This document shows positions 4,401-6,179 of a stretch of 20,975 bases of DNA, one piece after another (positions within the stretch are counted from its first letter, which is position 1; every line of letters begins with the position of its first letter). Under the pieces are notes generated by a model. It had not been told where the DNA came from. It saw only the letters and a program-made list of their open reading frames with translations, and searched no databases. A program made the translations under genes and the position numbers. The stretch is from Proteiniphilum sp. UBA5267 (GTDB lineage Bacteria; Bacteroidota; Bacteroidia; Bacteroidales; Dysgonomonadaceae): the NCBI GenBank assembly GCA_002411515.1, contig DHTF01000032.1, forward strand, positions 24,222 to 45,196, read 5' to 3'.

Positions 4401-6179
4401 TCAACTCAGTTCCAGCCCGAATTCATCTGACAACTTTTGCAATGCCGGGTTCTGTTGCACCATTTCCTCGAATATCTCATGCGAGGTGAGTGGTTTTTTG
4501 ATGGCGTTGTCTTCTGCGATCCGGATGGTCATGGTAATCTCCCCGTTCTGCAACGTATCTCTGAGAAAGGATAGAATTACGAGGCTGTTGTCGGTGAGAT
4601 ACTGCTTGTTGAGTTCTGTGTTCACTTCCACTTCAAATAACACATCGCTCAGCATTCGTGGCAGGTAGAGCGACATGGTGTTTTTGAGCAGTACCTCCTC
4701 CTTTAGTGTGGCAGCATAAGATTTCCAGGCGGTAATCAGCTCATTCTCGGTGAAGAGGTTGGTTCCATTTTGCTGAACTTCTTCTTTGGCGAGGACAGTT
4801 TCTTCTTTTTGCATGCTTATAGAGGCAAGCGAAACCCCCATACCAGCCATGGACACATTTCTCCGTTTAAGAGTGGCTCGCTTTTCCAGCTCTTTCGCGG
4901 GTTGAGACTCCGTGTGAGGAGGTTCTTCCTCTTCTGGCTGCTCCGTGTTGTTCTCACGCTGGTGTTTTGCTGTTTCCTCAGCGGGTTTACGGGATGGAGG
5001 TGCTGCTGGTTCAGTTTGTGGGCCGTTCTTATGGGGTACTATCGGCTCAATAGTTTTTTTTTTTTCTTCATTTCCCATGTCGGGAACGGCCGTGAGTTGA
5101 CACAACTTGATCAGTGTCAGCTCCAGCAACAAGCGTTTGTTTTTGCTCAGTCGGTAGTTGAGATCACACTCGTTTGACAGTTCTATGGCGCGATATAGGA
5201 AACTATTGCTGCATTGCTGCGCCATGGCAATATATTTTTCCCGGATAGAAGCACCTACCTGAAAAAGCTCTGCCGTGGCCGGATCTTTACAAACCAGCAG
5301 GTCGCGAAAGTGTGAAGAGATGCCGCTGACGATATACTGTCCTTCAAATCCTCTGTTGAGAATATCGTTTAAAATAAGCAGGCTATTCACTACATCTCCC
5401 TTGAGGATGGCTTCGGAAAGCCTGAAGTAGTATTCATAATCCAACACGTTCAGGTTCTCGATTACTGCCTGATAGGTAATCTCTCCCCCTGTGTAGCTTA
5501 CCGTTTGGTCGAAGATGGAAAGTGCATCACGCATACCTCCGTCGGCTTTTTGCGCGATGATGTTGAGCGCCTCTACCTCGGTCTTTACCCCCTCCTCTTG
5601 TGCCACATACTCCAGATGTGACACGATGTCGCCAATGTGGATGCGGTTGAAATCGTACACCTGGCAGCGTGACAGAATAGTCGGGATGATTTTGTGTTTC
5701 TCCGTGGTAGCCAGAATGAAGATTGCGTGAGCCGGAGGCTCTTCCAGCGTTTTCAGGAATGAATTGAATGCAGCTTGTGAGAGCATGTGCACCTCATCGA
5801 TGATGTACACCTTGTATTTGCCAATCTGTGGCGGTACACGCACCTGGTCTATCAGGCTGCGGATGTCATCTACACTGTTGTTGGAGGCGGCATCCAACTC
5901 GTGAATGTTATATGACCGTTGTTCATTGAAGGCGACACACGACTCACATGCGTTGCATGCTTCGTTGTCGGCAGTCGGATTCAAACAGTTGATAGTTTTG
6001 GCAAAGATGCGTGCGCAGGTAGTTTTCCCCACACCACGCGGACCACTGAACAAATAGGCATGTGCCAGCTTACTGCCTGCAATGGCATTTTTCAGTGTGG
6101 TCGTGAGCGCTTCCTGACCGATGACTGATCGGAAGGTGGAGGGCCTGTATTTTCTTGCAGAGACAATGTAAGTATCCAT
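4401..6179 (-). CDS. dnaX: DNA polymerase III subunit gamma/tau
   Basis: This is the clamp-loader ATPase that loads the beta clamp, and in the tau form tethers the polymerase and helicase. The protein is 592 residues from the ATG at 6179; a TTG five codons upstream is less likely. Walker A is GPRGVGKT (46-53), the zinc site is C65, C75, C78 and C81, Walker B is IIDE (126-129), and the SRC motif is at 170-172. Domain III runs to about 366. A proline/glutamate-rich linker (about 376-440) leads to a tau-specific C-terminal domain (about 475-592). Codons 372-376 contain an uninterrupted A12 run in the mRNA (genomic T12 at 5054-5065). Slippage by one base in either direction leads quickly to a stop codon, which would make a 377- or 379-residue gamma-like protein. 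The frame is intact through the run, so the gene is not broken. Confidence 0.97.
   Translation of the reverse strand: MDTYIVSARKYRPSTFRSVIGQEALTTTLKNAIAGSKLAHAYLFSGPRGVGKTTCARIFAKTINCLNPTADNEACNACESCVAFNEQRSYNIHELDAASNNSVDDIRSLIDQVRVPPQIGKYKVYIIDEVHMLSQAAFNSFLKTLEEPPAHAIFILATTEKHKIIPTILSRCQVYDFNRIHIGDIVSHLEYVAQEEGVKTEVEALNIIAQKADGGMRDALSIFDQTVSYTGGEITYQAVIENLNVLDYEYYFRLSEAILKGDVVNSLLILNDILNRGFEGQYIVSGISSHFRDLLVCKDPATAELFQVGASIREKYIAMAQQCSNSFLYRAIELSNECDLNYRLSKNKRLLLELTLIKLCQLTAVPDMGNEEKKKTIEPIVPHKNGPQTEPAAPPSRKPAEETAKHQRENNTEQPEEEEPPHTESQPAKELEKRATLKRRNVSMAGMGVSLASISMQKEETVLAKEEVQQNGTNLFTENELITAWKSYAATLKEEVLLKNTMSLYLPRMLSDVLFEVEVNTELNKQYLTDNSLVILSFLRDTLQNGEITMTIRIAEDNAIKKPLTSHEIFEEMVQQNPALQKLSDEFGLELS
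5039..5065 (-). promoter_or_regulatory. Putative programmed slippage site in dnaX (A12 run plus out-of-frame stops)
   Basis: On the coding strand, GAAG is followed by twelve A residues and then CTATTGAG. Reading straight through gives EEKKKTIE. If one A is gained (or the ribosome slips -1), the frame becomes AAC TAT TGA, with the stop at 5047-5049. If one A is lost (or the ribosome slips +1), it becomes CTA TTG AGC CGA TAG, with the stop at 5039-5041. The run begins at codon 372, at the end of the conserved clamp-loader core. No convincing downstream hairpin or strong upstream Shine-Dalgarno-like stimulator was seen, so slippage by RNA polymerase, as known for Thermus dnaX, fits better than E. 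coli-type ribosomal frameshifting. The mechanism is inference. Confidence 0.6.

Follow-up and report, generated by a model that had tools for sequence, protein, structure and literature searches.

The dnaX gene of Escherichia coli is subject to -1 programmed ribosomal frameshifting; its slippery sequence A_AAA_AAG is preceded by AGGGAG and followed by a stem-loop. The dnaX gene of Thermus thermophilus carries a sense-strand run of nine A residues with stops close behind it in both other frames (Larsen et al. 2000, as cited in PMC1088944 and PMC5009743); according to the same two sources, tau is translated from run lengths differing by multiples of three and gamma from the rest, and slippage in dnaX is thus a known kind of event. 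Antonov et al. (2013) reported 17 two-ORF dnaX genes, all of the -1 type and nine of them with A10, for which a transcriptional mechanism was proposed (PMC3711429); the species of these nine genes may overlap with the Bacteroidota. Reversed two-ORF cases are described as "much fewer" in a 2016 review (PMC5009743), and the words Bacteroidetes and Flavobacter are absent from the part of that review that was searched. No paper on this dnaX site in Bacteroidota was found in a search of titles and abstract openings, which left subscription papers mostly uncovered.

The dnaX gene and its A run in the window

The window is a stretch of 20,975 nt from Proteiniphilum sp. UBA5267. Its dnaX gene starts with the ATG at position 6179 and ends with the stop codon at 4401-4403, comprising 592 codons plus the stop. 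The product matches NCBIfam NF011531 (PRK14971) with 853 bits (cut-off 685), and the Pfam domains PF13177, PF22608 and PF12169 (ATPase, lid and domain III) were found in it, so that clamp-loader domains I-III are present. By these matches, the predicted product is a typical gamma/tau protein. The features of the gene are as follows.

4401..6179, minus strand: dnaX, DNA polymerase III subunit gamma/tau, 592 aa (NCBIfam NF011531, Pfam)
5076..5465, minus strand: gamma/tau domain III, final domain of the clamp-loader core, residues 239-368 (PF12169, 41.8 bits, cut-off 24.4)
5054..5065, minus (coding) strand: A12 run, codons 372-376 of dnaX, read directly; T12 on the plus strand
5047..5049, minus strand: TGA, stop of the -1 frame, giving 377 aa when one A is gained (or the ribosome shifts by -1)
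5039..5041, minus strand: TAG, stop of the +1 frame, reached after loss of one A or gain of two, product of 379 or 380 aa
4404..5051, minus strand: codons 377-592, the tau-only linker and C-terminal part, which the short form lacks

The first A of the run is the second base of codon 372 and the last is the first base of codon 376, the reading being GAA AAA AAA AAA ACT. The twelve A residues at codons 372-376, as given by the original prediction, were confirmed on the sequence. The prediction had also placed the run at the boundary between the clamp loader and the tau-specific part, and this holds as well: the run is located at 63% of dnaX, directly behind domain III, whose PF12169 match ends at residue 368, and the alignment of the E. 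coli clamp-loader crystal construct (1jr3_A) to the window DnaX reaches residue 359.

With A12 as in the genome, the 592-aa tau is encoded, frame 0 remaining open for 217 codons past the run; we refer to such a gene as one-ORF. The stops of the two other frames lie 2 and 4 codons past the run. The computed product is 377 aa (42.2 kDa, C-terminal KKKNY) after addition of one A and 379 aa (42.4 kDa, C-terminal KKKLLSR) after removal of one; the predicted ends at residues 377 and 379 were recomputed exactly.

Judged from the window gene alone, A12 could have arisen by chance. Outside the run, AAA makes up 23 of the 33 Lys codons and GAA 26 of the 55 Glu codons of this dnaX, and from the gene's own usage of these codons EKKK would be written GAA-AAA-AAA-AAA with P = 0.16; the mean probability under the same synonymous null is 0.30 across 209 run-bearing genes. 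These values speak for an explanation in which nothing is programmed at the site and a Lys-rich linker is written in A-rich codons and followed by chance stops. Because the synonymous-codon null is weak gene by gene, the argument rests on the comparison of orthologues.

In the 3.14-Mb assembly there are two exact A12 runs, that of dnaX included; the second is at G000:C26:1754-1767 (plus strand). Exact A10 runs number 20, of which 6 lie within sense ORFs of at least 120 codons, a coarse look at A10 avoidance. In four stretches of this assembly (L362, L364, L373 and L376, at position about 1201 or 947), a sense A10 lies within the first 6-38 codons of ORFs 331-427 codons long. These early runs are possible slippage or phase-variation sites, or the starts may have been set too far upstream.

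The run and the closed frames among orthologues

Sixty codons, beginning at the position that matches residue 352, were examined for their longest A stretch, and the run was scored as present at eight or more A residues. Related genomes are non-independent events in all counts that follow, and many loci come from metagenome assemblies. Two loci, L002 and L003, were dropped since they gave no DnaX match, and 20 extra loci chosen for short frames or stops were excluded from the prevalence counts. Duplicates of the junction were removed for the counts of control windows, G+C and stop geometry (305 to 302 and 355 to 352 loci) and kept for those of prevalence, length, layout and E. coli-type signals.

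The run was present in 28 of the 30 same-genus loci, the window's own included, with lengths of A8-A12, and both stops lie within 10 codons in 26 of these 28; relatives with the run broken by AAG codons, named in the original prediction as a refutation, are thus not the rule in this lineage. It was found in 56 of 111 loci from the rest of the order (from 109 of the 192 matching genomes listed, closest first, plus two more), in 62 of 64 loci from other orders of the class (64 of the 99 same-class genomes listed, closest first, several genera being repeated) and in 21 of 50 loci from other classes of the phylum (an outgroup of mostly one locus per family), the remaining 29 being without it. Among named Bacteroidota it was present in 60 of the 80 best of at least 592 stretches, a count that may favour the run since one of the six search peptides overlaps it, and some of these loci are duplicates of the genus set, being from the genus of the window (e.g. 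L033). By family, the named set has the run in 10/10 Flavobacteriaceae, 6/6 Sphingobacteriaceae, 4/4 Hymenobacteraceae, 4/4 Chitinophagaceae, 2/2 Saprospiraceae, 2/3 Rikenellaceae and 0/4 Bacteroidaceae. G+C-rich loci also carry it, namely 5 of 6 at 60% G+C or more and 20 of 39 at 50-60%.

Runs of at least eight A residues occur in 209 of 302 junction windows versus 16 of 2,104 other 60-codon windows of the same ORFs. Across the orthologues, this comparison decisively argues for a run at the junction beyond what chance would give.

The run starts at a median of 18 codons past the position matching residue 352. Its length in the 285 non-outgroup loci is A10 in 141, A9 in 32, A11 in 18, A7 in 10 and A8 in 9, and the mean is 9.8, 9.9 and 10.0 in codon phases 0, 1 and 2, respectively (s.d. 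0.7-0.8). By parsimony, 53 changes of phase were counted on a FastTree tree of 350 DnaX N-terminal domain sequences, counts on this tree being rough. Since the run occurs in all three phases at equal length despite these changes, selection acts on the nucleotides and not on the amino acids alone. In other parts of dnaX, 371 of 729 Lys pairs are written AAA-AAA and 2 of 38 Lys triples consist of AAA throughout; where a run is present, the corresponding figures at the junction are 71/71 and 122/171, which are conditioned on the presence of the run. Two runs lie close together at the junction of two loci: A10 and A9 at codons 371 and 382 of L005, and two A9 at codons 370 and 384 of L028 (0-based).

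The frames behind the run are closed in a regular manner. Exactly two frames are closed within 15 codons and the third is open for more than 60 in 231 of the 242 run-bearing genes whose sequence extends far enough, the other 11 being arranged otherwise. Both alternative frames stop within 10 codons past the run in 143 of the 160 one-ORF genes, compared with 370 of 1,376 A5-A7 control runs at other places in these genes and with 12 of 79 run-less orthologues.

The constant length of about 10 in all phases, the excess of junction over control windows and the rarity of all-AAA triples elsewhere in dnaX speak against A-rich codons with chance stops, as do the 64 two-ORF genes, described below, whose tau C-terminus is out of reach of frame 0; we consider that explanation hardly tenable.

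Two-ORF genes and loci without the run

In 67 of 355 loci, frame 0 itself stops right past the run (two-ORF genes); the 20 loci chosen for short frames account for 19 of these, and when that set and the outgroup are left out the layout is found in 43 of 206 run-bearing loci. The frame of the tau part was assigned by similarity to the C-terminal 115 residues of one-ORF relatives that carry the run (161 references), and is -1 in 55 genes and +1 in 9, with 3 unassigned. All three layouts were observed in the family of the window: frame 0 in the window's genus, and -1 (L121, A10, a single-contig genome) and +1 (L129, A11) in two other genera. One +1 layout, that of L245 (from a single-contig genome), is found again in L338, which represents another species of that genus and has 78.6% DNA identity to it; a second, that of L287, is found again in L339 and gives weak support as the two are 97.6% identical. 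The two-ORF layout is also shared by L272 and L274, species of one genus with 79.4% DNA identity. The tree has 29 changes of the tau frame, and 200 shuffles of the labels gave a mean of 60 changes and a minimum of 52. As the frame varies while the run and two closed frames persist, the genomic tau frame is readily swapped.

Single-base errors in the A runs of metagenome assemblies were considered as a source of the two-ORF genes, and gene by gene such an error is possible. Against it as a general source speak the A10 mode, which is kept in the two-ORF genes (48 of 67), the single-contig cases (for example L121, L245 and L274) and the recurrences across species.

The tau frames also bear on -1 programmed ribosomal frameshifting as in E. 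coli dnaX, in which tandem tRNA-Lys would slip on A_AAA_AAA/G and the +1 stop would be incidental. The -1 position of tau in 55 of the 64 genes with an assigned frame is what this mechanism would give; the nine genes with tau at +1 are beyond the reach of a -1 shift.

The run is missing from 79 of the 285 non-outgroup loci (including L059, which is cut off inside the tested stretch), and thus it is not needed in every lineage. Outside the genus, about half of the Bacteroidales in the sample are run-less, as are all four Bacteroidaceae of the named set (L037, L038, L040 and L047). No other homopolymer is common at the junction of the 79 loci, the longest T, G and C runs being 7 and each of these being seen in a single locus; an in-frame A_AAA_AAG is present in 5 of the 79. 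The original prediction of slippage gains from the survey as a whole; it had foreseen neither the two-ORF layouts nor the run-less half of the Bacteroidales outside the genus.

Two loci have a stop past domain III in the absence of an A run: in L086 the tau C-terminus follows behind a TAG in the same frame, and in L096 it lies in another frame. These stops may be due to assembly error or to another kind of recoding. The contig of L049 ends behind its dnaX fragment with CTGTCTCTTATACACATCTGACGC, which we take to be a transposase (Nextera) library adapter, so that this assembly end is probably artificial.

Proposed slippage: RNA polymerase or ribosome

The signals known from E. coli were looked for at the run-bearing junctions. 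Runs of this length hold a possible slippery heptamer, and of the 226 run-bearing genes 46 have A_AAA_AAG in frame 0; the window run has none. None of AGGAG, GGAGG and AGGGAG occurs in the window upstream sequence GACATGGGAAATGAAG; among the relatives a strict Shine-Dalgarno-like motif was found in 9 of 225 and none of the 225 combined it with a downstream fold of -15 kcal/mol or below. Loose Shine-Dalgarno-like 4-mers upstream are commoner than at control sites (20% versus 9%), a point on the side of ribosomal frameshifting. The E. coli dnaX control, subjected to the same tests, gave AGGGAG and a fold of -19.1 kcal/mol. The downstream fold of the window is -6.3 kcal/mol with a z-score of about 0, and folds of -19 kcal/mol or below were obtained in 9 of 225 relatives. 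The z-test is insensitive: the E. coli control itself scored -0.4 to -0.5 over the corresponding 55 bases and 113 of 246 junctions are at or below its value, so that the z-score was not used to discriminate.

Ribosomes of Bacteroidia reportedly fail to recognise Shine-Dalgarno sequences (PMC9976891), which counts against a stimulated -1 shift; the prfB frameshift motif is said to be kept in Flavobacterium johnsoniae, where its efficiency is low (PMC12421855), so that ribosomal frameshift signals would not be absent from the phylum. For a -1 shift a run of A6-A7 would be enough, yet the lengths centre on 10, and the +1 frame would not have to be closed, yet it is closed too (the 143 of 160 one-ORF genes above with both stops within 10 codons); in E. 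coli dnaX the -1 stop is 1 codon on and the +1 stop 12 codons on. Taking these points together, we regard -1 ribosomal frameshifting as an unlikely basis of the site.

The closure of both frames would be explained by sliding of the ribosome on the A stretch (Koutmou et al.), after which it would leave the run in another frame and stop nearby. Sliding has been seen on iterated AAA codons in E. coli systems, perhaps in both directions, and even on AAA-AAG with ribosomes stalled by missing factors (PMC4363877). At least 11 A residues were needed in E. coli cell-free translation according to the same paper, and while the A12 of the window is long enough for sliding to be possible in this gene, most runs here are A9-A10; moreover, A10 runs in phase 1 hold only two full AAA codons. 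We therefore consider ribosome sliding to be very improbable.

From the conserved anatomy of the junction, we conclude that the A run is very probably a programmed, transcriptional slippage site by which two clamp-loader subunits would be made from one gene. RNA polymerase would lose register on an A stretch about as long as, or longer than, its RNA-DNA hybrid, which is 8-10 bp (PMC6260861), and the dnaX mRNAs would carry A runs of mixed length. Those in one of the three frames would be translated through to tau, and those in the other two would stop within a few codons to give gamma, consisting of domains I-III with a short Lys-rich tail. Selection would then be directed at a run length of about 10 and at the closure of exactly two frames right behind it, leaving the choice of the genomic tau frame largely free and repeatedly changed. 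The anatomy of the site, its conservation and the switches of frame are seen in the sequences themselves; from them we infer that such slippage takes place in the cell, that RNA polymerase is its source and that the short form would function as gamma, the last by analogy with E. coli and Thermus.

For the window, the original proposal was that slippage yields a gamma-like product of about 42 kDa, and the conserved run and stops in relatives lend support to it. RNA polymerase had been preferred to the ribosome as the source; the length of about 10 in every phase, the occurrence of both -1 and +1 layouts and the rarity of E. coli-type signals point the same way. By a criterion of Antonov et al. 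(PMC3711429), ortholog groups that need both directions are assigned to transcriptional slippage, and the -1 and +1 layouts among the present orthologues would be so assigned. The Thermus dnaX run placed in E. coli is reported to give -1 and +1 shifts, mostly by insertions (PMC6260861), and the prevalence of insertions agrees with -1 layouts outnumbering +1 here. As a counterpoint to slippage by RNA polymerase, the base next to the run is G in 39 of 75 phase-1 A10 runs, which creates A_AAA_AAG.

As to how the site evolved, we lean, with reservation, towards a slippage gate ancestral to the Bacteroidota and indifferent to frame, in which the tau register drifted among 0, -1 and +1, followed by repeated loss in Bacteroidales including Bacteroidaceae. 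On this reading slippage on about 10 A residues would be heavy enough for tau to be made even where it is encoded out of frame, and run-less lineages would make gamma in another way or not at all.

If transcriptional slippage is the right explanation, the replicase gene in a large part of a major phylum would contain an obligatory transcription 'error', and some species would have full-length tau only through slipping of RNA polymerase. It may also explain why dnaX looks frameshifted or truncated in the annotation of such genomes. The role of gamma has long been controversial in E. coli (PMC5009743). The genes described here form a natural series (three frames, A8-A13, many lineages and repeated losses) for testing that role, and the series would also suit measurements of slippage by RNA polymerases outside the usual models. 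Within the limited literature search mentioned above, no printed account was found of how widely the site occurs in the phylum, of its equal length in every codon phase, of the +1 layout or of its repeated loss among Bacteroidales.

Among the described systems, E. coli dnaX resembles the window in being the same gene, with the site at the same end of the clamp-loader core and the same pair of products; it differs in that the window has neither A_AAA_AAG nor AGGGAG, and these are found in few relatives. Poly-A frameshifts in dnaX of Blochmannia, which are ant endosymbionts, lie further downstream in the tau-only part and not at the gamma/tau boundary (PMC3017870). The two-ORF genes of Antonov et al. 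share with ours a gamma stop in frame 0 behind poly-A and a tau part reached after a change of frame (PMC3711429); here -1 and +1 orthologues stand beside one-ORF genes, even in one family, and the window itself is one-ORF. The Thermus type is like the window in having an A run of nine or more before the tau-only part and nearby stops in both non-zero frames. Further marks of that type are an mRNA population of mixed A-run lengths and comparable amounts of gamma and tau. The present case, described from sequence alone, differs from it in phylum, in run length (mostly A10, with A12 in the window) and in its recurrence through a phylum with tau in any register.
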